Below, one piece after another: positions 1 through 26,082 of a DNA stretch of 64,000 nt (the stretch's first letter is position 1; each line of letters begins with the position of its first letter). Origin of the DNA: Physcia stellaris (lineage: Eukaryota; Ascomycota; Lecanoromycetes; Caliciales; Physciaceae); assembly GCA_018902385.1 (NCBI GenBank), contig JABSSW010000019.1:1-64000 (forward strand), given 5' to 3'. The notes beneath the pieces are model-generated. The model saw nothing but the letters and a program-made list of their open reading frames with translations, searched no databases and had not been told where the DNA came from. The position numbers and the translations under genes were made by a program.

Positions 1-1760
1 GAAGTTTCGATTTTAATAAAAATACGAAATTCATGTTCAACATGTTGCATACAAATTGCGCAATTTTTTTTATCAATGAAAAGATAATCAATTGCATCAA
101 CGTTTATTAAAATTTCTAATTTATGTTTATTATCGTTGAATGACAACGTACAATTGATAATTAAAAATCGTTTGACAAAAAAATCAAACAATTCGTCATA
201 ATGAATAAAGAAAATTTTTAAACATTCATCAATCGCGTTTTGATGTTAATTATCAATTTTTCGAATCAAATTCGCTCGATTCGTTGATCATGTTCATGTA
301 AAACATTTGCATTTTGTGTCAAATGACGCTTTTGATGTTTGTGAACGTTCGAACATTTTTTTCATACGTGATCGATTTTATCACATTTTAAACATTTTGT
401 TCGTGACGATTAATTTGTCGATCATCGAATCACGAATTTTCGAATTCAATAACGTTGAAACGAAATGAACTGTAAATTTCACGAAAAAGTCGAGATGACA
501 AATTTCGTAAAAACATCGAAATCGAAACGACAAAAATTGATTTGAATTAAAACAATTCAAAACGTTGTTGACGTGTCGCGATTTTTTTTTTTCGAAAATT
601 CGATTGTCGATTGTATATTTGTTGCAAAATGATTCGAATTTCATCGAACGTGATGAATTCACGTGAATATACATTCATCGTTTTTTTCAGATTTCAGAAA
701 ATTTTGTTCATCAATTTTTCGATTTTGATGATTTCGTTATAATCAATTGAATTGCTAAGACGAAAAAAAATGAAATAAAAAAATTGAAAATTTTGAATAT
801 TCATGATCAATGTTCGAAATTGATTACGCATATTGCGTTTGAAATCAAAATTTTCGTAAATAATGTTCAAGAATTTCAACATTATATGTCAAATTTTGAA
901 ATGATTCATATCAATATCACGAATCGATTGTATGTGATCATCAATATCATTTTCAATTCAGTCAATCACAATAATGATTGCGATCATGTTCGTGTCGTAA
1001 TGATCAACGTTGATCGTCATTTTATCGTGTATTTTTGTTTTTCAAACACGTCAAATGAGTTTCATTTCATCGATGAATTTAAAAGAATTTGAATGTGCTT
1101 TGAAACGTCGTTTGTTTTTTTGAGAAAAATTAATTACGTTGATTTTATCGTCGTTTTTTTCATCGTCGACGTCAAAATTTCGTGCACGATCGCGAGTTTT
1201 GATCAGCAAAACGTCGTGATTTTTTTTCAAAAAAATGTAATTTTTTTGTTTAGTCAGAAATAAATCATGTTGTTTTTCGTATTCGTTTTTCAGAATATTC
1301 AATTTTCGACGAATTTCATTTAATTCGACATTCGTATTGATTAGTTCGTCACGATCGACGCTGACAATATTGTACAAATTTTGATATTGAATCAGAACGT
1401 TCAAATAATTGTCACGATCGATGCGTAATCGATCAAATTTCTTTAAAAAATCGACGATTTTATGATTGACTCATCATTTCAACTGATCGATGATGACGAT
1501 ATTCAGAAAATGAATGATTTCGTTATTTTTCATTTTTATGAATTCGATCGTTGATACAAATCGACGACGTTTGAATTGATCAGCGAAATTTTCGTCAAAA
1601 AAATTGTCGTTAATTTCATGCAACATACGATTCACATTGACGTGTAACGTTTTGAGACGTTGTTTCATCGAAATAGAAAATTCGAAAAGAATTGTTTCGT
1701 GATGATTTCGAATCATAACTGAAAATGAAAAATTGAAAATGATAAAAAAGAAAAAAATTA
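1..1760 (-). mobile_element. Ty3/Gypsy-like remnant A, gag-side end, runs off the left edge
   Basis: AT-rich sequence with minus-strand open stretches at 1474-1716, 1051-1404 and 381-674. The 1051-1404 stretch reads as a coiled-coil-like, charged segment (QYQNLYN, ERD/KNEYEKQHD-type heptads) resembling the N-terminal part of fungal Ty3/Gypsy gag proteins, and 381-674 ends in DKLIVTNKMFKM. None contains Pro, Gly or Trp, the result of the context-specific C-to-T erosion described in the findings. Because gag-like material appears here after the integrase-like end of the next element, this is best read as a second element in the same orientation, truncated by the window edge. The assignment rests on weak residual similarity and orientation. 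Confidence 0.4.
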
Positions 1761-2186
1761 ATCGTGTTAGTTTTCGTTTTCTATCGTCGATTGCGTGAAA
1801 ATTCGATTTGTTATTTCACGATTTTCGTCAAATGTCTCGTCAGGAAAATTTTTGAATCGTTTGCTTGATCAGCAGAATTTTTCGTCGTTTGTTTCGTCAA
1901 AAAAACTTAATCGATTTGAGATTTTATTTTTGAACGTTCGCGTATCACGACGAGCGATAGAAATTGAAAATTTATTGTAATATCATGAATCGTGTTTGAA
2001 TAAACGTATTATTGATTAATTAAACGAAAACAATAAATTTGCAAAAACAAATAAATACAAAATGTTGAAATTGCAAACAATGTGCGACGTCAAATTTCAA
2101 ATCACGTTAATTTCAACGTAAAATTAAAACATAATTCGTTGTTCGATCACATATTATATCAATTATTTATCTATCAAATCTATTTG

Positions 2187-3141
2187 TCAGACATGTTCGT
2201 AACAACTTAAATGTTTCACATAACGTTCGTTGCATGTCGATGCAATTTTTTTCAACGTATCGATAAAATTTTTATTTGAAAATGTTATTTTGTTCATTAT
2301 CGTTCGAAATGTTTTATTATTTCGTTTTATAATTTTCAATGATTTATGCGATTGATTGAAAACGATGATACAAATAATTTCTAATTCGTTAAATATTTTT
2401 TGCATTTCGTTCGATCTGAATGCAATATTTGCGTTTTAATACATTGCGACGAACAAAAAATAATCATTGAATTTATGATATTCAAATGATTGTTTCACGT
2501 TTGAAATTTTCGTATTCATTGTTGAGTACGAAAATAAATCGTTCGAAAAATAATTTATTATGTTACAAATATTCTTGAATTCATATTTCGAAAACGTGAA
2601 TCAATTCATGAAATCGATATCGAAAAAATCGTAAAATTGATAAATCTGAATAAATGACAAAAATACGTGTCGATCAACGATGATTCATTTTGCGCAAAAT
2701 AAACATTTTTGTATGTATGATTTGATATTCGAAATCATGAAAAATCAAAAAATTTGATTTTTGATTCGATTGAATATGATATTTGACGAAAAATGATCGA
2801 TTTCGTCATGTGATTTTTGCAACAAAAATGCGATTTTCTTTTTCGTGATGCAAATATTTCATTTATCGTTGTTTTGATGCAATAATCGTTCGAAAATTTC
2901 GTTTTATCGATATTTATTTATTTTACGTTTGAATGCGATCATTACGATTTTGTTCGCATTTGTTGAAATTTTTTGCTTTGCGTAATAGTCGTAAATATTT
3001 GAATATTATTTTTTTTTGAATGTAATTTGATCGAACGTCGATTTTTTCGCTCAATTGAAATGTTCGTATCGTTGTTTGAAAACGAAAACAATTATCATGA
3101 CATGATTCGATGAAACAAATTTCAAAATTTTGTTTTTTCAC
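2187..3141 (-). pseudogene. Probable integrase-region remnant
   Basis: Open stretches 2923-3141 and 2187-2405 lie downstream of the RNase H remnant, where integrase sits in Ty3/Gypsy elements. The second reads IVFNQSHKSLKIIKRNNKTF, compatible with an integrase core in which a strand ending in D precedes N-G-x-x-F, but the catalytic DDE residues cannot be assigned with confidence. The call depends mostly on position. Confidence 0.35.
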
Positions 3142-3438
3142 ATAAAAAAACGTTCATTCGATTTTGATTATGATTTTCTCATCGTATTTTTCGATTTTTC
3201 GCTTTTCGTTTTCGATCGATAATTGTTTCAAAATATCACGATGATTTTTTTTGTCAATCTTTCAAAATCATTGAATATCGTTTTTGTGATTTTTGACTTT
3301 CTTGTACAAATTTTTGATTAATTGATTCGATTCGCAATTTTTATCGTTGAAAATTACGCGTGAAAAATCGTCGATCATTTGATTTTTTTTATTCTCGATA
3401 TATTTGATCTGAATATTGTGATTTCGAAATTTGTTTGT

Positions 3439-4336
3439 TCAACGAACATATATATTTTCGTGTTTTTGAACGTTGATGAAATTCATCAAGAATTTATGAT
3501 TCGTGTATATCGTATTGCGTTTCAAAAAGTCAAAAATGTGTTCGTGTTTTTTAATGAAATGAACAATGATATACAATTTTCGTTTGTATGTATCGTAATT
3601 GCGTTGCGTGACGTTGAATGCAATACAATTATAAAAAATAAATCGCATTTTATTTTTTTGCAATTGACGAATGTAAATATTTTTATCATATGTCGATGCG
3701 TCTGTGTATGTTTCGCAAAATAACGAAAAATCATAATCGAACATATTCATTACGTTAAAACATAATTGTTTCAATATTTGAAACGACAAATTTTTTGATT
3801 TTGATCATCGTCATTCGATTTTATTGTCGCACAAACGTTGAAATGATTTTTGAAATTCATCGAAATTCAATATTTAACGTCTCGTAAATTGTATTGTTTC
3901 GAGAAAATTTCGTAATGCAATAACATTTTGAAAAATTGATCAATTGCGTATTTTATCGATGAATTTTTGTTTAACGTTCAATATTTCATCGATTCGATGT
4001 ATTTGATCGAATGTTTTGAATTTTGTGATTTCGATTTTTAGTTTGAAAAATGAAATTTTCATTAATGATCACAATAATTTTAAAAAAATGATATTTTAAA
4101 AAATAATATTGTTTTTCGAAAATTTTATGATCGTCAAAAATATCGTCGATGTAAAAAAATATATTTGACGACGTCGTATGCATTATCGCATGTAATAATG
4201 ACGATTTTGAATACGATTTCGATATGAATTTCAATACGATATTGATTAATTCGATAAATGTAAACGAAAACGTTTTGATATTTTGTGACATGCGAATTGA
4301 TTGTAATTGATCGATTTCAAATACGTGAAAAATCAA
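3439..4336 (-). pseudogene. Retrotransposon reverse transcriptase / RNase H fragments
   Basis: Two adjacent minus-strand open stretches. 3986-4336 carries NIFFYIDDIFDDHKIFEKQY, matching the fungal Ty3/Gypsy reverse transcriptase region in which an [F/Y]xDD catalytic motif is followed by an E-Q-Y-x-F-L-x-x-H-F-F segment; YFLKYHFF follows here. 3439-3789 carries YTDAST, then YNCIAFNVTQRNYDTYKRKL and NTIYTNHKFL, the order of RNase H motifs (TDAS, the E-x-x-Y-D region, TDHK) in this family. Stops separate the two parts. There is no Pro, Gly or Trp in either. Non-functional. Confidence 0.7.
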
Positions 4337-5764
4337 ATAATGACAATTTTCGAAATGAATTGTTATATTTTAATAATCATGTTTCATATTTGTCGCAAAG
4401 AATATTCGATGATTTGAACGATTTAACAAATCGTGTGTACGTTATGTTAATTTTATCATATTTTCGACGAATTTCTTATACACGAAATGATAATTGAACG
4501 TGAATTTCGATTTTGTTTAATTCGATTTTGATATCAATACAGATGCGATTTTTCATTGTGAAATACAATCATTTGCGATGATTGTACGTTCGTACATATC
4601 GATTTCGATATTTTTCTGAATAATAATTTGATATCATCATTTTTTATCTGAAATAAATCGATGTTGTTTTGTATTGTAAAATTTCAAATTAAAACGAAAA
4701 ATGATTCGATGTACGATAAAATCAATAATCGATATTTTTTTCAGTTTTTTCGTTTCGACATCACGATAAATTCATATAAATTGTAAAATTTTAAAACGAA
4801 ATGCAAAATTTGAAATTGCAAATTTCAATGTGATTTTTTCGTTTTTGATTCATTTTTTCAACAATTCGTTGAATTGATTGATATTCAATTTTCGTCGAAT
4901 TATTCGTCGAATTGTAAAAAAAGTTTTGAAATTTGCTGATTTCATTGAAATAAAATTGACGTTGTTGATTCGTCATAAAAAAAAAATTCGACTTTATTTT
5001 TTTGTTCGTTTCAATGAAATATACATGTTTTATCGTTTGAACATTTGTAATCATATTTGATATTTGTATTTTCAATTTGTTTGAAAATCGAACGATAAAA
5101 AAATAAATTTTCTTGATTGTTTCAATGCAATAAACAAACGTATTCAATATCACAACGACATTGCGAATTATTTTCGAAATTTTGAACAATGTTAAAAACG
5201 ACATTAAATATTCGAATGTTGTTTTTTATTGATCATTTCATCGAAACGAAAAATTACATGATTCGATATTTGCATTGATATAATCGATGCAAAAATCAAC
5301 GAATTGATATAACGTTTTTTTTGAAAATGTTGTAATGTTTTTTTTTTTAATTTTACACGTGAATTTTCTTTAAAATCGTTAGCAAAATTTATTGAAAATT
5401 TTCATAATCATTTGATTTGATAATTTTATTTTTCGTATTTGATTTCGATATATCGTATTCGTTTGAATTTAATTTTTCATCGATATTCATATTCATAACA
5501 CGTTGCATCGTTGATTTAAATTTTTTGATTATGTTTTTGAAAAATTTTTTTGATCGTTTTGTAATGTTATTTTTTTGCATAATTCGAAGAATTTTTCATG
5601 TGTTGTTCAATTAACTTTGAAACATTGACAAATTTTGTTGTTTTATTCGTAGTTTTGTCATCAATGATGATTTTTTTCTGTATATTTATCATTGTTGAAA
5701 TCGAATGCAATCATAAAAATTCGAATAACAATTGAATTTTATTATGATTCGAATTGACGAAAAT

Positions 5765-6061
5765 TCAGATTTTTCGAATGATTTTCTTCACATGAACGTG
5801 AAAAATGACGAAATAATGAACTTTATGATAATTATCATTGATCACGATCATTCGAATATTTCGAAAATCGATTTTGATAACAAAATTCATTTTTAAATCT
5901 AAATTATTTATCAATTTTTGATTGATTATAATCAAATTCGATTTTTGATCAATTTTGATCATATCGAACGATATTTTAATGATTAGAAAATTTTTCTTGT
6001 CAAATTTATTGCAATTGATGAACACATAAAAAACGTTAAATGATTCGTTAATTGTTTGCAA
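5765..6061 (-). pseudogene. Retrotransposon aspartic-protease-like remnant
   Basis: A 98-codon minus-strand frame between the gag-like and RT remnants. It reads SNLIIINQKLINNLDLKMNF followed by a strand pattern ending FVIFHVHVKKI, the layout of retroviral-type proteases of Ty3/Gypsy elements (a D-[ST]-G strand, then LAxxLGL, a flexible basic stretch, and a V-x-F-x-V strand). The DTG motif itself is not intact, consistent with loss of GGN codons. Supported by position and pattern only. Confidence 0.4.
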
Positions 6062-7131
6062 ATACTTTTAGTAATTTATTTGTTGTTTTTGCTTTTATCG
6101 ATTTCGACGAAATTCGTATTGACGATTTAAACATTTATGATTTGAATAATTTTTTTTTTCGTGCGTGATTTTCGATAAACGATAATAAAACGTTTTGATT
6201 CGTCACGAAAATAAAATGAAAATTGATACAAATGCATAATCAATAAAATAATCATGTTGTTCATGAAAATGTTTTTTACATTGATTTTTGATTTTTTTTT
6301 CATTTTCGAAATCGATTTCATCATTTTTTTTTTTTTTTTGAATTGATCGACGAAAAAATCGACAATACGTTTTTGTTGAATGTTTTCATCAATATTTGAA
6401 TTGTTGTTTTTTTTTTGACGTTTGCGTGTTTTCATAACGTTAAATAACACGATCGAATCATCGAATTTTTCGTGAAATAAAATGACGAGATTAATTTTGT
6501 TAATTTCGCGAAATGTGAAAATTTTTATTTCAAAGTCGTCGTAATCGAACATTTCAAATAAACGTTTTGAATCAAACATTTCAAAAACATATTTCAGTAA
6601 ATTGCAATTAGAATCGTGTTTCGTTTTACATTGTTTGAATTGAAACATACGATCAATATATTTTAATAAAACAATAAATGTTAATGCAAATATTACAATT
6701 TCAAAATGAAAATCACGATCATAAATTTCGTTGTAATACGTGATTTGATTCATTGCAAATTGCGAAAATGATTGAATTATATTTTCGTTGTTGATTGATG
6801 ATTACGTTCGATATTTTGTTGTTTTTGAAACGATCGAATTGTATATTATTTGAAATGAAATTAAAATCGTATAGATTTTTTTAAATGTATTACGAAATGT
6901 CGAAAAATTATAATTCGTTGTTTTTCAAATAAAACGTCGTTTTGCATGAATTATTTGTTGATAAATCGAACAATTATATTGATTTTCATGATAATTAAAT
7001 AAATCGCATTTGAAACATCAATAATTGTGTTTTTTCTTGTTGTATATTTGAATTTCGTTGAAAAATGAATTCGAATATTGATGTTTATTCGTTTTGAAAT
7101 TTCGATTTTTTTGCGCACGTTACTCGTCGAT

Positions 7132-7742
7132 TCATTTTTTCGATTGATAAATGTTTGTAATTGAAACAAAAAATGAAAATTGATTATGTTTTTGTTCGAA
7201 TCGAGAATTTTGTGAAAAAAAATTTTGTTGATGTCGAATCATCGAATTTGTTGCAAAATCATTGATTACATTTTGAATTCGATTATTGTTTCGAATACGT
7301 CGAAAATTCGAAAAACGATTATTCGAAAAAATAAATTCGATAACATATTTCAATGTGATCATTTGAAATTGTAAAATTTGAATCGATATATTCGAATTGT
7401 AATTTTCGATTTTGATGATCATGAATTTTTTATCGAAAAATGTCAATTTCTCGTTGCGTTTTTTTTCGATTTTTTTGATTTGATATTTTTTTTGACGTTT
7501 TTGAATTCGAAAATTTTTTTTTGCAAACGTGCAAATTTCATAAAAATTACGAATTTCAATGTTTTTGTCATGTTTGACATAAATTTTTGTTTGCAATTTT
7601 TCGTCACGTATGTTTTTGATGTAATACGCGATAATATTTTTGAAAAAAAAAATTTCAAAATATTCAATAATTTCACGATCGAAACGTTTTTGTCGTCGAA
7701 TTTCTTGAACAACTCGACTGTACGTTTGTAATAATTTTTCAA
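7132..7742 (-). pseudogene. Retrotransposon gag-like remnant
   Basis: Overlapping minus-strand frames 7443-7742 and 7132-7596, upstream of the protease-like remnant. The first opens YYKRTVELFKKFDDKNVS and reads like the distal half of fungal Ty3/Gypsy gag; the second continues NFRIQKRQKKYQ. Rich in Lys, Asn, Ile and Phe with no Pro, Gly or Trp. The 208-codon frame at 6127-6753, also free of those residues, lies in the gag-to-protease interval and is probably part of the same polyprotein region. Confidence 0.35.
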
Positions 7743-7756
7743 AAATTTTTTTTTTC

Positions 7757-9011
7757 TTGTTGAATCGATTGAAATTTCAAATTGTAATCGTGTTCACGTT
7801 TTGTTTTCGTTGTGTTTTTTTTTTGTCGAAATATTCGTATTCAATAAAACGAATGAATTCGATTTTATCGATTGCAATAAAATTTTTTTTGATCACGATG
7901 TTTTTAACATCGTCGTTGATATTTGTTTATTTTTTTGCATCGTTTTCGAACGATGTTTAAACTGTTTCAATTCATTTTTTATTCGAGAAATTTTTAGAAA
8001 ATTCGTTTTTGAGTTTCGCAATTCAACGTTTTTCGTTTTTTTTTTCGTCGAAAATGATATATTTGAATTTGATCGACATGATGATTGCGTTGTTTGTGAC
8101 GAATTTTGACGATGTAAATTTCGAAAAAATAAAAATAAAATTTGAATTATTGACAAATGTAATATGAAAATCGTTGAATTGAATTGTGAATCGATTCGAA
8201 TTTTGTTTTTCGTTTTCGTTCGAATGATAAATTATATCGTATGTTTTCGATCACAAATCACATTTGATACAATGAAATCGTTGATTGATATCGATTTCGA
8301 ACGATTTTCGATAATCGCAATTCGAACAATGAACGTGTAAACACAAAAACAAATTGATTGAATGTCAAATAATATTTGATACAAATATCGAAATAATAAA
8401 TGATTTGAAACGTATGAAATGTTGAAATTTTGATTTCGAATGTTTGATAATGTTTAACGTTTCAATCGAATGATTTTGCGTTTTCGCTGTTTTATAATTT
8501 TAATTTTATTTGATGTTTAATATGCGTTCGATTTTTGCGTTTTATAATGATTGATTTACATCATTTGATAATGTAATATTGAATTTTCTGATATTTTTGA
8601 TTTGAATTGAATGTTGAATTTAAAATTTGATATGTTCGTTTCGATATTTTTTTCAAATAACATTTTGAATGTTTTAATACGTTGTTTGAAACAACGCATT
8701 TTTATGATTTTGTATAGTTTTATAATTCGATATTTTTATTCGTTATGTGTTTTGAATGTTTGATGTTGATTTTCGATATTCAATGAAACGTGATTGTTGC
8801 GTAATAAAATGATCGATTTTGCTGTTTCGATCGAAAAACTAAAAAAACGTTCAACGAAAATTTCTTTTAGCAATTTTTTTTTCAGAATGATCATCAGAAA
8901 ATGAAATTTCTAGCAATGCGCAGAGATTGCAAAATAAATCACTAATAAAAAATGTAACGTGAATTTGATCGAATGATTTTGAAAATGTTTGTTATGATTT
9001 ATTTGCAAATG
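7757..9011. repeat. AT-rich, mutated right part of element B without recognisable coding
   Basis: Extremely T- and A-rich sequence with C confined to CpA and CpG contexts, like the rest of the block. Apart from short chance frames up to about 8.16 kb no coding similarity was seen. It presumably corresponds to the 5-prime untranslated side of the minus-strand retrotransposon. Confidence 0.5.
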
Positions 9012-9119
9012 TGTTACGAGCGATTTTCTAGTAGATTTATTGTTAAGCAATTAAGATGCGTCACGTGACGTCTCGTTTATTGATCAATTATCAGTTTTCT
9101 CGGTTCTTCTCTCTAACAG
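9012..9119 (-). repeat. Possible short LTR at the right edge of element B
   Basis: Read on the minus strand this 108-bp stretch begins TGTTAG and finishes GTAACA, the short inverted termini typical of LTRs, and it marks the switch from AT-rich eroded sequence to ordinary sequence. It also contains a CGTCACGTGACG palindrome. It keeps CpT and CpC dinucleotides, unlike the adjacent block. No second copy was found at the other side, so this is a suggestion. Confidence 0.25.
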
Positions 9120-9359
9120 TATTGCCGAGGATTAACTTCAAGTGAAGTACGGTGATCATCTCATTATTGAGGATTTCGGTGCTTCATAAATCCGAGTCAG
9201 CTTAGACTTGAGCAGATATTCGATAATTGGAAAGAACAAGTCAATGTGGCTGTTCCTATATCTCAAGCCCAAAAGCGATCTGAAGGACTATGGGAGGATT
9301 AGGAGGGTGTCTATATTGTCAGATAGCGCTTGAGCTCGGGGTATTCTCACATATGAGCT

Positions 9360-11296
9360 CTAAATTTCTCTAGCGTATCTGCGGTCCTCAATCCATACAT
9401 AGTGAGTGGTCCAATTTCTCGTGAGAGTGGCCAAGGCAAGTAGGATGAGCCTGAGCAGACTAAGGCTGGTTACGTCGATATTTTGGGAATCATCATTCAC
9501 CCTCACATCGATGCCGTTCTCCCTGAAAACCACCAACATTACTTCTCTAAGATCTTCGGTGCTTTGTATCTGTGCGCAGTATGATGGCAATAGATATTTC
9601 CTCGGCAATGGCTTCATGCTGCGTGAGACTTTGATTTGCACCTGCTTCACGATGAAGGCTGCTTCTTGCCCTGTCGCCAATGCATAAGTTTGCCGTGCCA
9701 CTTCAACGACGTCGATGTCTGCGTCCGTGAGGGCACTGAGCCAGGGAGATAGATGACCTCCGAGTAAGGCATGCAATGTGGGCTTGAGGTATTTCTCTAC
9801 ACAAGATCCAGGATGTGGTGGGCTATCTCTCCCCTGTTGGGTATCGTATCGGATCAATTCGTCAAACCAACCCTTGAAGTAGGTGAACTTCGTGTTCGTT
9901 CTCAACTCATCATACCAGCAATTTTTCAAACGGGGTACACGGCTCCGTGTCGGACCTTTAGACCAACACTCGTCGAACCATATCGAGTATTTGAGGGGAC
10001 CGTCGAAATACAGCACCCCATTGTTCAGATCTGCCCCAAGCTTGAGCTTGCATCGAAGGGCAACATTGACAAGTTGACTTGTCCACCTCTTCACATCTAG
10101 CGATTCAGCGTGTGTGTATAATCCGTCTCGGAAAGCTTTCAATAAAACATCCAAGCCTACGTATTGTCGGAACGTCGGGTCAGTTGTGCTTCGGGATGAC
10201 GTTTGGTAGACTGCAAGTGCCTCCTCGAGGTTACATGGGCTTTTCATCCAAGAGCGAAACAGGCCTTGATAATCACATCGAAGCCTGGAACCTGCATCGA
10301 CGAGCTCCTTCAGTTTATCAAGACGCCCGTGCCACATTCTGGGTGGTCTGCATTCAGGTTTCCAAAAAAGCTGTAGGTCATTAGCCTGACAAAGGCCTTC
10401 GCTTGGGTTGATGGCGTATTTGTATTGATAGGAAAGCCGACATCGGATGCTTGGGTGCTATTATATGCCACCTGACAGTTCAACCACCTTTAGTTGATTC
10501 TCTCTTCTACAAGGTAATGCACGAAAACGTCAAAATGCTAGCCAGAGTAATCAAGAACTCACATCAGTTTTTGAGCTGTATTCCCAGATGGAAGGACGAG
10601 GGTCGCTATTTACACGCTTTGGCGCCGTGATGAGGATCCTCCGTTGAGGCGTAGCGGTGAGTTCACGATGTTCGCGGTTTTTGTCCAGGACACCAATGAT
10701 TTGATCCAAACGCCAGGCGATTGCTCCGAAATCAATTTTCTGCGATTGCTCCATCGATGCTACGCGATCTGAGATGTGCGTCGTAACCTGGTACTCCTGA
10801 AGAGAGATTTGGCTAGTACTCAATTCAGCCATGAAAATTGATTATGTTTATCAGCTTTATACCTTGAGACTTCTTGATGGGCAAGGCTGAGGTCTTTCGT
10901 GCAATGATCGATCTCAGATTTTGACCTCTGGAAAGCTTCAGAGTTGAATACTGCGCTCAAGACTTCAATCCGACTTCGGAAAGATTTTCCTTTGATCTTG
11001 TCGAGTCTCTCGTCGATCTGTTTCTCGAGATCCTGCACTAACGAACTACAGCTATTCACGCGGTCCTCAAGAAGGTCGATGTTGACTTCCATAATCAAAT
11101 ATTGCACTTGCCGGCATGTAAACTCAAATCTGAGCAAAACTTCTCTGAGGTTTCTCAGCCAGTCAAGCTCTTTCGCCAAGCTTTGCGGTAATCCCTTCAC
11201 TTCGCTGATGGTTCTACATAATTTGGATGTAGTTCGACACGCGATCTCAACCAGAGGGAGAACCCCAATGATAGAGGTCACAGGCTCCATTGCCAA
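9360..11296 (-). CDS. PigL_N / STAND-type N-terminal domain protein with uncharacterised C-terminal half
   Basis: Three exons fit exactly: 11296-10863, 10812-10563 and 10457-9360, giving 593 aa. Introns start GTATAA and GTGAGT and end ACTAG and AATAG, and the reading frame is kept across both. The first 150 residues open MAMEPVTSIIGVLPLVEIAC and are helical, resembling the PigL_N-type domain that often precedes STAND/NACHT or ankyrin modules in fungal NLR-like proteins. No P-loop is visible: after the helical region comes a WKPECRPPRMWHGRLDKLK segment, faintly like the turn entering an ankyrin repeat, then about 320 residues with no domain recognised. The protein is therefore either a standalone signalling/adaptor member or a derived relative. 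It sits between a transposon block and a fold-back repeat, typical of fungal NLR-like genes. Confidence 0.7.
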
Positions 11297-12921
11297 TTTA
11301 TTAGCTCCGACGGGGTATTAGATCTTCTAGGATATTTTTCCGGCGAAGAGTGTCTCAGGCCTTCCAAATCTGAGCCGTTCGAAGGTGGGAAGAATACAAA
11401 ACGAAGTTCAACAACAACATACGTCCTACAAGCAGGTGTAAGTTTGCTGATCAAGTACAGTCGATGCTGAAAATGCTTTAGGAGCGCGGTACTGATTTAA
11501 CCCACGGATACTGAGCGATTCCAAGATCAAGAGACGGAATGGTGCTCACGTACTAAATTCTGACAGCGTCATTAGCGTCATGATATCACTCGGGGAATGA
11601 ACGAACTCATCTATCATTTGCTGCATCTTCTTGCATGCAAGTATCCTTGAGCATTTTCAAAGCTTGGGCATCAATTTTGCCGTCATATTGCGTCCCGGAC
11701 ATATATCAGTAAACAGATAACCCGAGTTCTTACGCTCGGCGATGCCCAACATCTCCGATGTTGGCGCGCGGCGCACAGCCCGTAAGATGTTTCGAGCACT
11801 CTAAAGATAGAGTTGCGTTATGCTCCTCTCATTCAGGGACTTTGGGCAGCAAAACAATGTCGCACAACCTCCGGCAGCGGCAACTCGCATGATCTTAGAA
11901 CAATCCGCGGTACACGTCAGAATGTATCTTTGTAAAGACTCGAAGTGCTTTACAGAAGTCACGGAATTCTTTGAACAGTCGACATACATTCTTGAGAAGT
12001 TCGTGAAGTATATACCCCACGGTGGGCTCACTTTTAACTAGCGCCCAAGCGGGCCGCTCCCCGGAGCAGCCCCGGATAAGCCGGCACCTGCTCCCGGGGG
12101 CCGTACCGCCCAAAAGTGAGCCCTGCCAGGGCGTGGGATGATGTCAGTAGTCGTTAGCCATCGATCCATGGATTAGCGATTCCGAGCAGCGTTGGAATTG
12201 GACTATAATAGGCAGCTTGCAGCAAACGATAAGTTTCAGCTAATCCGTTGGACCGAGCATGTTACACAATGGGTTCCCGTTCTAGGGAGGAACAAAGATC
12301 CGCAGCTGAAAACGTGAAAGATTATGCAGCCGTCACCCCATCGAGCTGCTGCAGTCTGACGTTCAGCGAAGCTGAGGAAGCGCATCTGACACTCTTAGAA
12401 GATGACTTGCCGCGGGGTACTCTCCATGAATGTTGCTGGTTTATGATGGTTGGATGCGGAGTGGTTCGTCCCCGGATTTGTTATTTGTGCTGGATTAAAG
12501 CGTCTTGTACAGCGCTGCAGCTGTGATTTACCATTGAGATCCAGTGCCTGCATCACAGTATGCCAGTTGGGTAACTGCTTGAAAGTCCGGAAAATGTAAC
12601 CGATCGCCTGGGTAACAGCCCATGAGGACTCGCAGACTTGAACAGCACCTCTCCTAATCGTTAAAAGTCCTAGCCACTTCAGGATCGAGCTTCTGAATAT
12701 ATTTGTCCCCTTTATAGATGCATCCATATCATATTGCTAGTGAAATTGCAATAGTGAAAGACGTGAAATAGGACTCGACAAAGCCAGGAACGCTCAAAGA
12801 AACATAGGTCAAAACTGAATGGTCATCAGATCACGAACCTAGCTACAGCTTCTTTAACCAATATTCGTTTAGAAATGACCGAGATCAATCCGCCTCCATG
12901 TAAAGAAGATCCCAAGTACAC
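11297..12921. other. Intergenic stretch, 1.6 kb
   Basis: No convincing gene was seen. Small frames at 11801-12041 and 12248-12727 lack homology, splice continuity or codon bias. The notable feature is the GC-rich fold-back repeat at 12015-12138. Confidence 0.5.
12015..12138. repeat. GC-rich fold-back (inverted-repeat) element
   Basis: A perfect 12-bp inverted pair, GGGCTCACTTTT at 12024-12035 and AAAAGTGAGCCC at 12112-12123, is enclosed by an outer pair, CCCACG (12016-12021) and CGTGGG (12132-12137). The interior, about 75 bp and very GC-rich, is itself partly self-complementary (GGGCCGCTCCCCGGAGCAG against CTGCTCCCGGGGGCC). The whole can fold into one long hairpin, like a fold-back MITE. 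No clear target-site duplication was found. Confidence 0.55.
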
Positions 12922-13739
12922 TTACCCCGACGAGCAATTTCCAGCTTTGCAAACGAAGGGGTCAGCACAGTCATTGTAAGTCTTACAAGACGCTCCCAGA
13001 CAATGGCCTTCCCACGCGCACGATGTCGGTCCTGGCCCACTCTTTTTCGTGGTACTCGTCAATAGTGTTGTCGCCGTTGTTGATAGTGAACTTGCCGCCG
13101 TCGAGCTTACTGGCGTGCTACTTCCCGTGCCGGTACACAAGTCGCCTCCTTCACCGATCTCATATGTTTTCTTGTTGCAAATTCCGTCCGAAAAGAAGGG
13201 TGTCGTATCAGTGGGTAGGTCCTTAGCCGGGTCTCGGACTATAGTTTGTGGGCCTCCGGGAAGGCTGTTCTCACAGTCTATTTGGGTGTCCCCGCCATTT
13301 GAGTAAGTCGAGCCAGTCCAAAGATCGATGTGATACTCTTTGCTCGAGTCCCAGTCTTCTTCTGGATAGGGTCTTAGCACCTTTGAACATCCTCCACTTT
13401 GCAAGTGAGCGGGTAAATGAATCAAGACTTACTGCACTGCTCACAATCATCCTCATATCGGGCGTACTTTCTCAGATAAGGTAGATACACCACGTCGCAC
13501 ACCTTGAAATCCCCATCGGTAGCGGTAGCAAAGGTTATCGGGTCATCGTAGGAGCCTGTTCCTCCAGCAAGGGAATGGCCGCAATTGGACCAGGCTATGC
13601 CGGCGCCTGGAGGGGAGTTGTCCGGGTAGCCAAAGAAAGTGATCTTAACATTATCAAGAGGAGAGCATGATTCAGACTGTGAAGGGAGTACGCCTAGAAA
13701 GCCAGCGACGGCGAGGACGACGATTGGAGATGCTTTCAT
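12922..13739 (-). CDS. Secreted double-psi-beta-barrel-like protein with cysteine-rich C-terminal module
   Basis: Two exons, 13739-13433 and 13391-12922, encode 258 aa; the 41-nt intron starts GTAAGT. The start was chosen at MKAS because it gives a clear signal peptide (hydrophobic VVLAVAGFLGVLP, cleavage near QSES). The mature part has NCGHSLAGGTGSYDDP, then a D-D-C-x-x-C pair followed after the intron by EYHIDLWTG. This resembles the arrangement in double-psi-beta-barrel (barwin/expansin/GH45-like) proteins, where D-C-x-x-C-G precedes HxDL. A Ser/Thr linker leads to a terminal six-cysteine module spaced C5C4C5C5C4C that could bind a carbohydrate. Likely extracellular; enzyme activity not established. 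A GTAAGT overlaps the stop region, so a further 3-prime exon is possible. Confidence 0.7.
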
Positions 13740-14785
13740 TGTGGAAAGTGAAGGATTTGCAGCGTTTACTTTCGTTCCACGTGAAGCAGAGAAGTGTTTG
13801 GATAGTAAAAGTAAAAGCAGGAGAGAGAAATATATACCTACCGTTCTGGGGCACAAGTTAAGCCATCGTTGCGCCGGCGTAGCAAGGCTTCTGGATGTAC
13901 AGGAGCCAAAGTCCAGGTAAGCATTGACATGAAACAGCCTCGTTACCGTAGTCTCTTTGGGGAGTATGTCCGGTACCCTTAAGTTGTTCGACGCCTTTCG
14001 GCCTAACACTTGATGAACAGCGCCCCTTGAGAAGATTTTCTGTCCGACGTGGGGGCGTTTCAACGCCCTCTGGTCACACCACACTCATTCCGCAGGACTC
14101 AGTCAAGGGTCAATGGGTCATTGTATCATCGTCAATAGCTCGGTAACCCTTTTAGAGCATAGTGGAGGTGTCAACGTCAAATTAAGGTGAATCTCCGATG
14201 ATCATTTGATGACAGTGACGTTCTTTGGCCCCATCTTGTGGAGGCACAGCCAATGTTGGCTGTTTCACCTTCAAAGAGCTATAACCCTATATCACGTGAG
14301 TGAATGCAAGCCCTAAGGTTGAGGCCTTGAGAGAAGTTGGCAGTTCGGGCCGAAATTCCAGCGATTTGCTTAGGGAAGTACTTTGAAAACTCTGGACCTT
14401 GCAGATTAGAAGAGCAAGGCAGATTGAAGCCGCGAAGCTCGCGTTGACTTGCACGCTGGAACGGGACTGTCGTGAAAAGTCTGATTATTCCATCTGATCT
14501 TAGTTTGGGTATACGATGTACCACTGGTTTGCTACTTTTTCATCCGTAGAAGTTGGTCATCTTGCAATTCAATCGGCAGCTTGGGATTGTAAATTGTATA
14601 CAAACACGCCGAGAAATTTACCTTTAATCCAAGATTGCCGCTTCTTTGTCTAGGACGGACTGGTGGAACAGACCCCGAAATGCGCAGATCATACGGAGAA
14701 AGGAACAACGACTCCCGAACTTTGCCACAATATCTGAAATCGTGTGGGTGAGAAATTCAGATGGTTGGCTACAAGTGTTAGTATC
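13740..14785. other. Intergenic stretch between divergent genes
   Basis: This about 1-kb interval lies between the minus-strand secreted-protein gene and the plus-strand HET gene and probably contains both promoters. Small frames here (for example 14279-14524) have no support. No repeat or RNA gene was seen. Confidence 0.5.
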
Positions 14786-16609
14786 ATGACAGATTCAAAA
14801 GGAAAGTCTGCGAAGGAGAGACATGATTTCTGCTACGGCAGCATCGAGTCGAAGGAGAGATTGATTCGAGTCGTCCAGGTGAAGCCAAGCCTCACTGTGG
14901 ACGGATTGCTACAATGTCGACTAGACACCGTCAGACTGGACAGCCAGTATTTCTGTCTCTCATATACATGGGGCTCCGCAAAGCCGAGAAGGCAAATACA
15001 AGTCAATGACCATCGCTTTTACGTGCGACGTAATCTATGGAAATTTCTTCATATCGCAAGGCAGCGTGAAGAGATACAGCCTCTATGGATTGACGCAATC
15101 TGTGTCGATCAGAGCAATGTGAAGGAGCGGAATCAACAGGTTAGTATGATGGGAGACATATACCGAAACGCGAAAGAGGTCATCGTCTGGCTTGGTGAAG
15201 GCGATTCCGGCCTCGAAGCGGCTTTGGACATGGTAGGTGAAAAGGCCACGTTGGGACCAAAGCTCGAAAGTACTGACAGAGAATTTCGCTCTCGACTGGG
15301 TCTTCGCCGATCTGATACCCAGTCGTTTTCTTCGGCCATGGACAAAATGACCACTTTGCCTTATTGGGATCGCGTTTGGATAAAACAAGAGCTTATGCTC
15401 AGTCAAAATCTGCGGTTCATGTACGACCGAGCCGAGAGCTGCTTTCTCCATACATCATTATGCCAGTGTAGAGGCTCAAAGTGGTGCTCAAAACATGATG
15501 CTTGGGGAGTGGGTCCAACAACATGCACCAGAATATTCGATTACTGTGCCAATAATCCACATTCGACTTATCGACGCCCATTACAAGATTTGATTAGGCT
15601 CTTCGCGGACTCTACTTGCTCTGAAGTCCTTGATCGTGTCTACGGATTGCTTTCTATGGCTATCGAAGGGGAAGCATTCGAAGTTGATTACGGGATTTCT
15701 CCCATTGAGCTATTCGTGCGAACGCTTAGTATTGCCCAGCCTACATCAGTCACAACCAAGTTCAGATTCATGTGGGAGCTCTTCAATAGTCTCCGACTTT
15801 CTTATTTGGATATTAGAGAAGGTTGTCTCAATCCGTTGGTAGAAAAATATGCAATGAACACCTGGTCGTTCCTCGTACCACTCAATCCTTATGCTGTCAT
15901 CAAGCAGTCAGAGATGACCCACAGTAACGCGATAGCTGGCCGTTTAGGAGCACGGGATCGTTACACACTGAGTGGGACGCTCAACCTAGCACCTTATTAT
16001 TCTCAACGAGTGAATCACGAGGGTTCCTCAGAGCAATCATTGGTTGTTCTACGCGGCAAAACGCTAAGAAATGGCTTCATGGTTTATGTAGAATATACAA
16101 CCTCTGACAAAGATACTGAATTCCGGGCGGACGACCTACTTCTTACCTTTGCACCAAGCCTGGGATTCTCCAATATTTTCCTAATTGGTCGGCGCTACAA
16201 AGATTCGGGCTCTAGTGTTGAGATCGTAGCTGTCGCAGAGTCAGATCGTCCAGTACAGTGGTTTAATGGCAATCTCCGTCGGACAGCTTCCACTAATAAT
16301 GAAGGACGGATCACCCTCAAGATTTACGACCCGCCAACGTGCGTCAAGGATGCCCCTATCTCTTTTCAGGTTAGTCAGAGCCAGCCGGCAAGTATAGTCA
16401 CTGCCAATATACGCTTTGATGTCTCTTCCGTTGCGCATATCATTCGACTGCTGGTTCCAGAACCAAACAGTGGAGATGATATGTGGAATTGGAGAGTTGA
16501 GAGAATGTCCCTGATGCACGAAGCTATCGTCTCGCACTCCCGGGCTCTCCATGGTCGCCCACGAAAGAGAGAGAAGCCTACCAAAGGTCCAGCAGCTCTC
16601 AGAGGATGA
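14786..16609 (+). CDS. Heterokaryon incompatibility (HET) domain protein
   Basis: Single-exon gene of 607 aa from the first in-frame ATG; the frame is open further upstream, but only from a GTG. The HET domain spans about residues 55-205 with the family blocks in order: YFCLSYTWGS, then LWIDAICVDQSNVKERNQQV and MGDIYRNAKEVIVWLGE. HET domains mediate non-self recognition and programmed cell death in filamentous ascomycetes, usually as polymorphic members of large families. The C-terminal 400 residues have no recognised domain and end in a basic tail (GRPRKREKPTKG). Neighbours are other accessory-type genes. Its partner or recognised allele cannot be inferred. Confidence 0.9.
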   Translation: MTDSKGKSAKERHDFCYGSIESKERLIRVVQVKPSLTVDGLLQCRLDTVRLDSQYFCLSYTWGSAKPRRQIQVNDHRFYVRRNLWKFLHIARQREEIQPLWIDAICVDQSNVKERNQQVSMMGDIYRNAKEVIVWLGEGDSGLEAALDMVGEKATLGPKLESTDREFRSRLGLRRSDTQSFSSAMDKMTTLPYWDRVWIKQELMLSQNLRFMYDRAESCFLHTSLCQCRGSKWCSKHDAWGVGPTTCTRIFDYCANNPHSTYRRPLQDLIRLFADSTCSEVLDRVYGLLSMAIEGEAFEVDYGISPIELFVRTLSIAQPTSVTTKFRFMWELFNSLRLSYLDIREGCLNPLVEKYAMNTWSFLVPLNPYAVIKQSEMTHSNAIAGRLGARDRYTLSGTLNLAPYYSQRVNHEGSSEQSLVVLRGKTLRNGFMVYVEYTTSDKDTEFRADDLLLTFAPSLGFSNIFLIGRRYKDSGSSVEIVAVAESDRPVQWFNGNLRRTASTNNEGRITLKIYDPPTCVKDAPISFQVSQSQPASIVTANIRFDVSSVAHIIRLLVPEPNSGDDMWNWRVERMSLMHEAIVSHSRALHGRPRKREKPTKGPAALRG

Positions 16610-16739
16610 TTAAAATGTGAGACCGACATCACTTACCTTGCCAGAGATTCTAGTCGGAATTCTGCGGAGCATCGGAAATCATATTTTGCTGACTGGAGTG
16701 CATAAGCAGAGTTGAGAGCAGAATTCGTGTTTAGCGGGG

Positions 16740-17414
16740 TTATAATATCTCTGGGCAGGTGATGCCTCGTCCAAAATTGAGGGTGGAGAGGGCACCCTTG
16801 ATTCCGCGGTGATCGCTGGCACTTTCATCACATCTGCCAGACATGATTGTCTGATTGAAAGGATGATCTGCATACAGGCGGTGAAACGGCTTAAGACTTG
16901 TGACTGACGCTGTGAATACGACACGCTTCATGGAAGGCGTCGCCTGAGCTGCTTCGAGCACTGCCTTAGTTCCTGCAAGCGCTGCAGATACTAGATCACG
17001 TGGTGTTGTCGTCCCTAGCGGAGATGCCACATGGATAAAATAAGAGCAATGCTTGACTGCTTCAAGATGGGCACCTCTTCCGGTGTTGTCCGTAACAATA
17101 GCAAAATTCAAAGCTCCACTTGACAGGAACTTCTGGATTGAAGGACCCCTCGAGATTGTGTCAACAGCATCCTGGCAGCGGACCACCGCTCGGACATGAT
17201 ACTGGATAATTGATTCTTTAGCAAGACGAGCGGTCACGCCTTCCGCGGAGGGAACTCGCGAATGGAGATTGAGAGCTAGCAGGAGCATGCTAGCTGTCAG
17301 AAATATGTAGCGAGATGTTGAATCTGTCACCTACTCCGGCTTAAGTGTACCAACGAGCACGGCATATCCGATGAGCCCAGTTCCACCAGTTAAAACTAAT
17401 GGAGGAGATGACAT
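16740..17414 (-). pseudogene. Truncated NAD(P)-dependent epimerase/dehydratase (extended SDR)
   Basis: Minus-strand sequence begins at 17414 with MSSPPLVLTGGTGLIGYAVL, the Rossmann GxxGxxG start of extended SDRs of the ketoreductase/dihydroflavonol-reductase type. After a stop/splice ambiguity at about 17334 it resumes YHVRAVVR, then CSYFIHVASPLGT and RVVFTASVTS, the family motifs up to the active-site Ser region. The frame then loses homology and ends at 16740, so the catalytic YxxxK and the substrate-binding half are absent (about 200 residues against 320-350 in the family). A 45-nt GTAGGT-to-GCTAG intron can bridge the first gap but leaves about 30 residues not found in relatives. Probably a decayed copy. 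Confidence 0.6.
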
Positions 17415-17960
17415 GGCGATACACGAATCAAACCGAAGAACTACAGAGATAATGTTGAGATGGTACCGAGAGATTATTAGTGATACGGCGCAGCATAATA
17501 CCCTCTCAGTAACACGTCAGCAACCTCGGAACGAGTGAGACGGTTGCTGGCGTGAGCTGACGTGAGCTTCGATCCTGAATTGATGTAGTCCAGAAGTCGA
17601 TCCAGCTTTCTAGAATAGTGCACCTGTCGTTCAGCCCTGGCTCTACTACTGGAAGTCTCTTGCAGTCTTTAGTTTCGTCCAGTTTCCAAGACAGGCCGAT
17701 CCCATCATTGCGTAAGAGCCAGTAATTCCAAACGGCTTCCAGCATTAAGGCGGACATTCGTGCTGACTGGTTCATCATATCTGCATGCAAGCTCCACCCG
17801 CCCAATTGAATCGGCCAGACTTTCAGCAATTTGTCGGTCATTCACATAACCCTTCAATCCTCGGTCATTCTCGTTATCGCCTGCGCCCTCGCTGCTTCTT
17901 TTACCTTCGATAGGCGCCAGTATATACCCGGCTCTCAAATTCTGCCTTGTTTCCATCATC
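17415..17960. other. Intergenic stretch
   Basis: Small frames on both strands (17506-17841, 17705-18001) show no homology. Presumed promoter of the rhodopsin-domain gene and of the truncated epimerase. Confidence 0.4.
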
Positions 17961-19274
17961 ATGGGCGCCGTCACTGCTACGGCTACGTCTATGATATCCA
18001 TAACTGCCGTAGAAGTTCTGGTTGCTTCGGCTGCAGTCCTGCTACGAGCATTTTCTATACGTATCAGACGCCGGCCATGGAAGGTCCACGATTTTTGGTG
18101 TTTGGGCTCACTGGTAAGTCGCAGAACGAGCGTCCTACGGATTGTGTCTTGATGAACCTATTAGCTCTGCTTGATCGCTCTTGCTGCCGATATCGCATAT
18201 GGTAGGTGGTATAGATATCGACATTGAAAGACCTTATTGTGTAACACTGCTTACTCGAGAAAGGCTCCGTAAAGGGTGGAGTGGGTAGAGACGTAGATGC
18301 GTCTCGACCTGAGAACGTCACAGTCGCGCTCAAGGCGATCCATTACTGAGTGCAGAGGTAATCGAAACGCGAGAATGACCCTGATAATCTTTCGAAGACT
18401 GACTTTGCTGGCCACTTTCCTTGGGCTATTGGCACCGCCTGCTTCAGACTTTCCATCCCCATCCTCAACATCGAAATGTTTCCTGTGTCGGCTTTCTTCA
18501 GATGTGCAACTACAACAGCAGTGATAGTGGTTCTCAATTGCGTGATGACTATCTTGGTGGCTTGCTTGAGTTGCGGGCCCATCGAATCCATATGGGATCA
18601 ATCAAAGGGCGACTTTGACCTAACGCATGTTTCGACGTTCATCATCAATTCTGTGAATACGTTGCTAGACATTTGGGTCGTCTGCCTGCCGCTACCCGTC
18701 GTCTGGGGATTACAAACGTCGATCCCAAAGATGATTGCAATAAGCGCGACATTCGCACTCGGGCTTTTGTGAGTCCATCTGCTTGCAAAGCATACATTGA
18801 ACAGACGCTGAAAGGCTCTTTGATAGAATGGCGGGCATAAACCTTAGCCGCATTATAATGATCAAAAGGTGCGGCGAAGATTTGTATTGCATCTTGCCTT
18901 TTACGACACTGGCGGGGAGTGAAGTGACCGTTGGTATTCTAGTCGCCTGTGTGCCTACCCTCGCGCCTGTCTTCCATCCGGAACAGTTCGGACGTCGCGC
19001 AGTCGCTCTTCGCCAGCGTGAGAATAGTCGCCAGCGTGAGAATAGTCGCCAGCATGAGAATAGTCGCCAGCATCTCCTAGCGGCCCGTGGCAGGCAGCCC
19101 AGCCATAATCTTCTTCCAGTCAGCGATCCAACTCCGGCAAATAGAAGATCATTTAGGATTGAAAAGCCACGAAAAACCGGCGAGTGTCTTCCAAGCGTGT
19201 CAGAATTCAAGAGTTGCTTCGACTTGAAAGTAACAGAAAAACCTGACCATGTACAGCTAAGCGAGTTCTCCTAG
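17961..19274 (+). CDS. Fungal rhodopsin-domain (PTH11-related) integral membrane protein, exon structure partly unresolved
   Basis: Several coding blocks follow each other. Exon 1 (17961-18113) has a first membrane helix and KVHDFWCLGSL, before GTAAGT. Exon 2 (18165-18201) reads LCLIALAADIAYG. Exon 3 begins near 18256 with GGVGRDVDASRPENVTVALK. A larger block, about 18400-18772, holds AIGTACFRLSIPILNIEMF and further helices up to LPLPVVWGL, with donor GTGAGT. The last exon (about 18831-19274) holds MAGINLSRI and GILVACVPTLAPVF. This order matches the seven-helix fungal rhodopsin domain. Between VALK and AIGTACF two in-frame stops lie in a stretch with no convincing intron, so the gene may be damaged. 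The cytoplasmic tail carries an 18-bp coding minisatellite. Confidence 0.6.
19011..19074 (+). repeat. 18-bp coding minisatellite
   Basis: Three and a half tandem copies of CGCCAGCGTGAGAATAGT (later copies with CAT for CGT) encode RQRENS/RQHENS repeats in the tail of the rhodopsin-domain protein. The unit is a multiple of three, so copy-number change keeps the frame. Confidence 0.85.
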
Positions 19275-19522
19275 CCTAGCGTCACGTAGAGGCACGATGC
19301 TCAACGGCATCACTGCGGACTTATGGTCTGAACGATAGCAAGACAAAGGTAGAGACTGTTCGTTCTGCCTAAAATGCTGACAATCTCTGGCTGGCTTTAC
19401 CGATGGTCTCAGGACGGGGTTGTGTCGAATCATTCAAATCATATACCTCTAGAGATATGTATTTAGCCTCGCAATCCCATCTTCCAAAGAAGAATGTGAG
19501 ACGTCAAATATTCGTGAGACAT

Positions 19523-20621
19523 CTATGCTGCAAGACTTGTCTGCTCCTGCCATCGTTGCATCAGCGCTTTGAGCTCCTCATCCTGAACATCAATCGAGAA
19601 ATCAACATCACTTGTAATCTCCGCCACCATCTGATCCGCATCCCAGCTTGAAAATTGTGCTTCGGAGCCGATCTTTCGACCTTCTTCAGTCCTAGTAAGT
19701 TCACACCACAAGGCCTGGAGCTCAACCTCCCAACCGAGCGCTGCAGCAAGTCTTCGAACCCCATCGTCGCAGTCGCCGAGAAGTACGACGTCATCTGCGC
19801 GACTTCCTAGCGTTGTCACATGTTCCTGATTGATCAATAGCCTCGGAACGCCTTGGGGACAGCGCTCTGGGAGGCAGGCAAAATTGCCCGCAGTCAGACT
19901 AGTTCCCATCACGATGCAGAGATCGCTTTCGGCGGGGAGCATCTCGTTCTGGGTGAAGGCTGTCGGTAACTCGTCGCCGTACATCATGATGTCCGGCTTC
20001 ACGAACCCATGGCATTGCTCGCAACGAGGGATCTCGCGACCCAGGATCGCTTCTCGCATCTTGGCGCTCGGGTAGGAGCTCTTGCAATCGATGCAATGCT
20101 GATCTGCATAGCTTCCGTGGCCTTCTACAATCTTATCAACCGGCACGCCGGCCAAAACCGATAGCCTGTCGTTATTCTGCTCAAAGAGCTTCAAGAGTAG
20201 CCCTTTGTCCGAGAGAAGTCGGATGAAACAGTGGGCAATGGTCGGCTGGAAGAGACCTGTGTAGAGCTCGCGTATCAAGCTGTAAAATGGCTTTGGATTC
20301 ACCCGGAAGTACGAGATATGGAAGACGGCTTCCATGAACGGTGAAGGGGGCAGATTGAGCCGAGCCAGACGCGCGTAAAGGCCAGTGTTGGGAGACTGAA
20401 TGTCGGGTATCCCGGCGCTGGTACTGATTCCGGCACCATCCTGTGGTCCTCCGCTTAGCATGTTTCCTTGATGCAAGATGGGTCCGGTAGTTACCTACCA
20501 CAACAATGATTTTCTTGGCTCGTCCGTCGTTGACATAATTCGCGATTGACTCCAAGGATCTATCCTCCAGGGTTAGGGGCGGAGGGTCCTTATCCAACCT
20601 AGCGGATTGATCCGAGAGCAT
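19523..20621 (-). CDS. Sirtuin (Sir2/Hst2-type) with substituted NAD-pocket residues
   Basis: Exons 20621-20499 and 20440-19523 give 346 aa; the intron starts GTAGGT and ends CCACAG, and joins IIVV to DGAGISTSAGIPD. Order of motifs: GAGISTSAGIPD near residue 43, YFRVNPKPFYSL typical of class I Hst2 relatives, a zinc knuckle CIDC...CEQC, the catalytic His in EGHGS, and MGTSL. Sirtuins remove acyl groups from lysines using NAD+. Two otherwise near-invariant residues are changed: PDFRSP of the family reads PDIQSP, and the QNID region reads EQNNDR. The catalytic His and the zinc ligands remain. It may be a specialised or weakly active enzyme. An upstream TTG in frame is not used as start because the ATG at 20621 gives the usual N-terminus. 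Confidence 0.85.
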
Positions 20622-25802: not shown

Positions 25803-26059
25803 CTAATACCTCGCTCTGTCCCGGAATAACTTTCTTTGTTGCAGCCTGTTGAGTGTAAGGAGCGAATTTTGAAGTACAGCTATCGCGGTGACTCCAAAGA
25901 ATATTGCCAGTGGTGCTAACATAGAGAAAATGGTGAATATAAAAGAGGCCCTGTTAAAAGTCTCGTTGCCACCGAGTTGGTCTGTTGCAAGACCCACCTG
26001 CATCGCAGTAAGAACAATAGTGAGGTAAACGAGCGCGTCTATAAGCCATTTAGTTTTTT

Positions 26060-26067: not shown

Positions 26068-26082
26068 CAATGTTCGCAAATG

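Follow-up and report, generated by a model that had tools for sequence, protein, structure and literature searches.

Two eroded repeat blocks at the start of a Physcia stellaris contig

We analysed positions 1-64000 of contig JABSSW010000019.1 (C19) of the lichen-forming ascomycete Physcia stellaris; this whole stretch is called the window, C-numbers denote contigs and L-numbers the repeat copies compared. The genome searched comprised 43.97 Mb in 147 contigs. The window carries two blocks of transposon remnants in which cytosines followed by a pyrimidine (CpY) are nearly gone: a block with Ty3-like retroelement remnants at the contig start (1-9101, the next CC or GG standing at 9102) and a block formed by a hAT element (26062-29723). 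A first-pass annotation had counted by hand, over positions 1-360, a loss of CpC and CpT with CpA and CpG kept. That count was exact (C followed by A, C, G and T 27, 0, 17 and 3 times), and the loss extended over the whole of 1-9011 more strongly than claimed, with 430 CA, 0 CC, 517 CG and 64 CT on the plus strand. GpG and ApG were likewise scarce, as had been stated (other-strand counts TG 686, GG 1, CG 517, AG 66). The GC content of 1-9011 was 0.253, and the symmetrised dinucleotide odds were 0.00 for CC, 0.15 for CT, 1.31 for CA and 3.58 for CG. CC and GG together occurred once, against a mean of 292 in 500 base shuffles (minimum 248). The longest runs free of CC and GG measured 7259 bases (1843-9102) and 3625 bases (26104-29729). 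The same pattern had been reported for the hAT element, where 27300-29400 indeed contained no CC, no GG, 17 CT and 15 AG. The limits given for the two blocks needed correction: the first reaches about 9101 instead of 9011, and the second spans about 26.1-29.7 kb instead of 27.3-29.4 kb.

The genes beside the blocks were of ordinary composition, again as claimed, with CC odds of 0.96 and CT odds of 1.06 at 29400-64000; the corresponding values at 9012-27299, into which the second eroded block extends for 1.2 kb, were 0.90 and 1.02. Seven of the eight long frames tested outside the eroded blocks matched Pfam, as a HET-domain protein, a Sir2 protein, a short-chain dehydrogenase, two PPR/TPR proteins, a GHMP kinase and a DEAD/DEAH-type helicase. 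Frames of at least 90 residues in 1-9011 contained no Pro, no Gly and no Trp in 2076 residues, and frames of at least 300 residues in 30001-64000 held 261 Pro, 329 Gly and 47 Trp in 4929 residues.

The first block is built of two elements. A 2.2-kb repeat unit at 3-2204 (probably minus strand) had 38 other copies with 86-96% identity among the best 40 of 455 candidates. Elsewhere this unit neighbours a reverse-transcriptase region that shares its strand (C1:622113-624101 and C1:624420-626615), and we therefore take it as part of a Ty3-like retroelement, probably the gag or 5' part judging by its place beside pol. The second eroded element (2211-9123) lies on the minus strand according to its RNase H frame, an eroded RT_RNaseH domain at 3439-3804 (minus strand; PF17917, E 3.2e-11; PF17919, E 1.1e-9). 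A 92% identical copy on C14 matches it from 2211 to 9118, and C97 matches the window over 5-6922 at 96% identity. An end repeat resembling a long terminal repeat (LTR) occupies about 8893-9123 and also stands alone at several other places. At the block's edge (9102-9123), CC/GG resumes at 9102, CT/AG is at gene level from 9101, and copies of the second element end at 9118-9123.

The ends of the hAT element were set by copies on C41 and C16, which match the window from 26062-26069 to 29715-29723. An eroded hAT dimerisation domain (PF05699) with one in-frame TGA lies at 26831-27031 on the minus strand. The C41 and C16 copies lack 28221-28437, an inserted LTR-like repeat of about 217 bp, several other matches of which are paired about 7.3-7.4 kb apart; they also lack about 418 bp at 26417-26834. 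Palindromic GTGCACTAGTGCAC-like words near both ends of the hAT block (26080-26200 and 29640-29760) are possibly subterminal repeats. Outside the blocks, a tRNA gene was found at 59963-60048 on the minus strand (Rfam, 54.1 bits), to which ARAGORN assigns an odd four-base anticodon.

Erosion followed the repeats closely. The repeat ends at 9118-9123, 26062 and 29723 compare with nearest CC/GG at 9102, 26104 and 29729, so that at all three edges examined, few as they are, erosion stopped no more than about 50 bp from the repeat end, and no spread into flanking single-copy DNA was seen beyond that distance.

Context of the C-to-T changes in intact and eroded copies

To polarise the changes, we scored the best 150 of 527 candidates from an RVT_1 profile search, of which 10 had no internal stop. 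Two of these ten, the intact copies L074 (C12:59600-61600) and L075 (C5:1165800-1167800), are open over 1151 and 1024 residues, have GC contents of 0.52 and 0.51, 257 and 239 CC, and 279 CT each, and are 96% identical to each other over 2 kb. They differ at 58 C/T sites, 40 of them at CpY, perhaps early hits. Sites at which L074 and L075 agree were taken as the ancestor of a 2-kb pol piece of the Ty3-like element, and 19 eroded copies (71-81% identical), drawn from 38 found among the best 40 of 193 candidates, were compared with it.

Results showed that C had become T at 3982 of 4148 CpC sites (96%) and 3890 of 4807 CpT sites (81%), against 251 of 4448 CpA sites (5.6%) and 95 of 4593 CpG sites (2.1%). 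Changes of C>T or G>A totalled 8617, with 82 reverse transitions (T>C or A>G) and 49 transversions; the process is therefore fast relative to ordinary mutation. Among the 8218 changes with a scorable 3' base, 7872 (95.8%) fell at CpY rather than mainly at CpA, and the RIP-like (repeat-induced point mutation) process with a preference for a 3' pyrimidine, proposed in the first-pass annotation, is thus supported by the polarised alignment. The 5' base had little effect, with changed fractions of 0.95-0.97 within CpC and 0.75-0.86 within CpT. Copies formed a graded series from the intact pair, which has no CpY deficit, through the partly eroded L063 (35 CC, 154 CT) to the fully eroded L099 (0 CC, 1 CT). 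In L099, the most eroded copy, 215 of 216 CC, 252 of 253 CT, 25 of 234 CA and 9 of 242 CG sites were changed, amounting to 467 of 469 CpY sites and 34 of 476 sites before a purine. In the least eroded copy, L081, the hazards were 1.80 for CC, 0.61 for CT, 0.017 for CA and 0.004 for CG, or about 3 : 1 : 0.03 : 0.007. These results show that the CpY deficit is the product of a mutational process and not native composition.

The context recurred in other material. With the half-eroded L063 as reference, 16 other copies of the 2.2-kb unit had C-to-T changes at 546 of 560 CC, 1947 of 2429 CT, 541 of 4793 CA and 336 of 4626 CG sites, and nine additional copies gave the same contexts; because L063 is itself eroded, this comparison alone would not fix the ancestor. 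In-frame stops in the 150 RVT_1 domains comprised 250 TGA, 33 TAA and 3 TAG, and those in 13 hAT domains 19 TGA and 2 TAA. Such dominance of TGA is what mutation at CpY, which turns TGG into TGA, predicts, whereas mutation at CpA would give TAA and TAG from CAA and CAG. An artefact of one repeat family was rejected on the agreement between hAT domains, LTR-like loci and random places.

For the random places, 20 sites of 1.5 kb were taken from 36 contigs of known length, giving 60 half-kilobase pieces. Fifteen had a GC content below 0.36 and together contained 27 CC, 257 CT, 930 CA and 874 CG; the other 45 contained 2504 CC, 2987 CT, 3076 CA and 2390 CG. About a quarter of this random sample of the genome is in the eroded state. 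Among 537 half-kilobase pieces of all loci analysed, which had been selected for their repeats, 408 were below GC 0.33, and 362 of these had no CC or GG at all, with 8 or more in only 3. The lowest GC content of the sampled eroded pieces, 0.17, was that of the first 500 bases of L110 (C4:1333278-1333777), about 5 kb from a contig end.

Strand behaviour was visible in L081 (on C95), where 43 successive CpY sites in alignment columns 1235-1529 (295 columns) had escaped mutation on one strand; in that tract the other strand had 21 of 27 sites mutated in one 250-column bin and 13 successive mutated sites at 1312-1397. In the sister copy L082, otherwise much like L081, both strands were partly mutated there (23/33 and 18/27). 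The strands so appear to be hit separately, in tracts, although the L081 tract may instead stem from a patch of another copy.

Candidate methyltransferases and relics overlooked by CpA-based indices

Masc/RID and Dim-2 methyltransferase genes had been suggested as worth looking for, and genes of both the RID class and the DIM-2-like kind are present. A PF00145 profile search gave four matches in three genes. The gene on C3, with an ENV motif and an open frame of 1001 amino acids, is called DIM-2-like by motif and length, not by tree. The gene on C5 is of the RID class and has an EQT motif; its best match was P. stellaris G7Y79_00005g016670, at 96% in a compared region thought to run into an intron, with a 130-residue stretch of the catalytic exon identical. 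When this enzyme was searched against plasmids by tblastn, all 519 records were below 60% identity. The gene on C6 (C6:791557-792528) is a second Masc1/RID-class methyltransferase, with an EET motif and close homologues in public protein data and in Heterodermia. The Masc1/RID group is described as having either EQT (N. crassa, A. immersus, P. anserina) or EET (B. cinerea, P. destructans) in the available part of the source (PMC6709928). Among the matches listed, EET occurred in 38 of 39 of the C6 kind and EQT in 117 of 120 of the C5 kind. A tree was built from 30 of 194 listed proteins (74 plus the best 120 of 657) and the three P. stellaris genes; four of these 33 rows had no recognisable core and were left out (P0005, P0035, P0189 and the DIM-2-like gene). 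In the remaining 29 rows the EQT and EET kinds split at 100/100, a split at which long branches meet. From motifs and tree, P. stellaris therefore holds both RID types.

The usual indices do not register this erosion. TpA/ApT and (CpA+TpG)/(ApC+GpT) were 0.43 and 1.45 for 1-9011 and 0.41 and 1.53 for 26300-29500, compared with 0.65-0.67 and 1.28-1.33 in gene parts, and by the usual cut-offs the 1-9011 block looks less RIP-affected than the genes. By contrast, (CC+GG)/(TC+GA) and (CT+AG)/(TT+AA) were 0.001 and 0.040 in the 1-9011 block, compared with values of 0.72-0.79 and 0.97-1.01 for the gene parts.

A stop-free eroded reverse-transcriptase frame, used as protein query, retrieved 109 clusters (P0195-P0303) at 32-87% identity. 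Seventy-three of them had neither Pro nor Gly in a total of 24554 residues, which did include 903 Gln and 639 His; as a yardstick, 159 methyltransferase matches had 6.0% Pro and 5.8% Gly in 120084 residues. The other 36 clusters contained some Pro or Gly, one of them with 6.4% Pro, Gly and Trp together. The query is itself free of Pro and Gly and favours such matches, and some relics may be from Physcia itself. The search shows, at the level of predicted proteins, that apparent relics of this kind exist in other datasets; it speaks to their existence, not to their frequency or species. Trp occurs in 47 of the 73, though TGG should vanish with GG, and gene prediction that reads TGA as Trp is the likely source. 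Such relics (e.g. P0226) could be mistaken for recoded genomes. A scan of viral_contigs for relatives gave 58 stretches with the pattern, none of them a relative.

A proposed RIP-like mutator with a CpY target, its rivals and its relation to known systems

We consider it fairly likely, with a probability of about 0.62, that a RIP-type mutator directed at repeats and acting on CpY, most likely an enzyme of the Masc1/RID class, eroded the transposons whose relics form the two blocks. The comparisons show that C before a pyrimidine is hit, with contexts ranked CpC > CpT >> CpA > CpG, on either strand and after any 5' base, and that such changes are spread over the genome. The process is putatively premeiotic and triggered by homology, and the mutation may be performed by a C5-methyltransferase with altered recognition of the 3' base. 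This would most likely be one of the two Masc1/RID-class candidates (EQT on C5, EET on C6); the DIM-2-like protein encoded on C3 may help it or act in its place. Several features of RIP are present: C-to-T changes far exceed the 131 other substitutions, repeats are hit and single-copy genes spared (in the window, in the random sample and at three edges at repeat ends), and the genome has RID/Masc1-class genes. The DIM-2-type gene expected of the DIM-2 branch is there as well. CpA is not the preferred target, the CpA and CpC counts in the polarised comparison being the reverse of the usual. Because reported contexts vary among species, we regard CpA preference as a usual rather than strictly defining feature of RIP.

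Four observations weigh against this reading. L074 and L075 are essentially unmutated despite their similarity, and either the process is not always effective or these copies are new. The eroded copies are partly non-independent; pairwise comparison of nine showed most sites to be shared within the pairs L081/L082 and L085/L089. Some of the most eroded copies have 10-12% of their CpA sites changed, so that a small CpA component exists. Finally, an open frame of the C6 gene was seen for only half of the domain, the first; the full match contains two in-frame TGA, which we have taken for an intron.

The strand-separate tracts and the C-to-T changes would also fit a cytidine deaminase of the APOBEC kind. 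The contexts of APOBEC enzymes lie 5' of the target C, whereas the context found here lies on the 3' side and depends hardly at all on the 5' base; this makes such an enzyme highly improbable, and a 5' context of the ultraviolet or APOBEC type was rejected on the same ground. A profile search with APOBEC_N (PF08210) gave no match, but its control matched nowhere either, so this result is weak. Slow spontaneous deamination of 5-methylcytosine at CpY in silent repeats, with no active mutator, would produce C-to-T changes in the context that is methylated and leave genes untouched. It was rejected as improbable on the ratio of C-to-T to other changes: 8617 against so few transversions and reverse transitions needs a far faster process, and the near-complete change of CpY in L099, with unmutated family copies beside saturated ones, points the same way. 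A 7-kb stretch free of CC does look suspicious, as if native to the element or made by assembly or polishing, and no other support for either was found. The normal CC and CT of the intact copies and the polarised C-to-T changes at CpY led us to reject native composition; stops together with lost Pro, Gly and Trp codons mark decayed coding sequence. An artefact is at odds with a pattern that is graded and confined to repeats and with similar Pro/Gly-free relics in other datasets, and we give these two explanations hardly any credence.

Heterochromatin-directed methylation or deamination by a DIM-2-like enzyme instead of one of the RID class, its CpT preference stretched to CpY, has more in its favour, although we think it unlikely. 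Neurospora DIM-2 is reported to methylate all CpN with a preference for CpT (2026 review, accessible part; PMC13297926), and the P. stellaris gene has the ENV motif and a long open frame. CpC as first choice is left unexplained by this route. Moreover, spread into flanking DNA is a known trait of the DIM-2 branch, whereas the loss of CC/GG ends close to the repeat ends at the three edges. A further idea, possible but tentative, goes beyond the RID-class mutator proposed here for the window: Physcia and other fungi might run a separate form of RIP through a dedicated methyltransferase, for example an EET-type RID paralogue, targeted to CpY and sparing CpA and CpG, widespread but unseen in public lichen or fungal data, and leaving TGG-to-TGA relics that resemble genes of a code with TGA as Trp. 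If so, it would have gone unseen because RIP detection relies on CpA loss.

The base 3' of the mutated C is a trait of the RIP enzyme that can be read off, and a preference overturned and carried near completion is a natural experiment on what sets RIP context and which methyltransferase acts. Its effects on codons also differ from those of CpA-directed RIP, with Pro, Gly and Trp codons vanishing and stops being mostly TGA.

The literature cited below was accessible in part, and statements on it hold for those parts. The literature searched, covering few subscription papers, contained among the records listed no report of RIP led by CpC or sparing CpA. The P. stellaris genome paper has no occurrence of 'repeat-induced' in its accessible text, in which three words begin with 'rip' (PMC7513301), and the ten-genome study lists CpA, CpT and CpG signatures with 'CpC' never mentioned in the part available (Amselem 2015, PMC4352252). 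A 2025 survey of 1,239 fungi describes RIP-like defences as sharing a CpA preference (PMC12543289). CpC is mentioned elsewhere: RIPCAL reports its depletion among others, with CpA dominant in Stagonospora (PMC2621366), and Monilinia has CpA changes plus CpC-to-TpT double changes (PMC8959702). High CpT changes were found with RIPCAL in the Neurospora Tad1 family and some Stagonospora repeats (PMC2621366), and a survey reports RIP-capable control genomes in which CpT-to-TpT is dominant in LARD elements (PMC7882544); CpT as such is therefore not new. A Sclerotinia paper uses 'CpY' for the less mutated class (PMC4188875).

Among individual systems, Botrytis, Sclerotinia and Magnaporthe (PMC4352252) and Anisogramma (PMC10998396) share CpT as a main context with P. 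stellaris, but there CpA accompanies CpT, whereas P. stellaris spares CpA and CpC leads. The Rid of B. cinerea is of the EET type, like one P. stellaris gene (PMC6709928), and the coincidence of this type with CpT signatures may serve as a lead on context rather than a test. Endocarpon pusillum and Cladonia rangiformis are lichen-forming ascomycetes too, with AT-rich or RIP-positive repeats (PMC3897900, PMC12542154); by the classical CpA indices the Endocarpon repeats score as RIP-affected (1.47 and 0.70; PMC3897900) and the P. stellaris blocks do not, and no context is given for Cladonia (PMC12542154). Transposon C-to-T changes in Tuber and some basidiomycetes occur mainly at CpG (PMC4352252), the context best preserved in P. 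stellaris. RIP in Trichoderma reesei is of the same kind, with CpA and CpG about equal, then CpT > CpC (PMC5496416). As matters stand, the P. stellaris process works like RIP in its repeats and its C-to-T changes but lacks the context and the index values that are usual for RIP; that it is premeiotic and driven by homology is putative. With the RID-dependent RIP of Neurospora it has in common C-to-T change on both strands, repeats hit and genes spared, a RID/Masc1-class gene and an AT-rich end state; the order of contexts in N. crassa is CpA > CpT > CpG > CpC (PMC5496416), and in P. stellaris, where it is CpC > CpT >> CpA > CpG, Neurospora's last choice leads.

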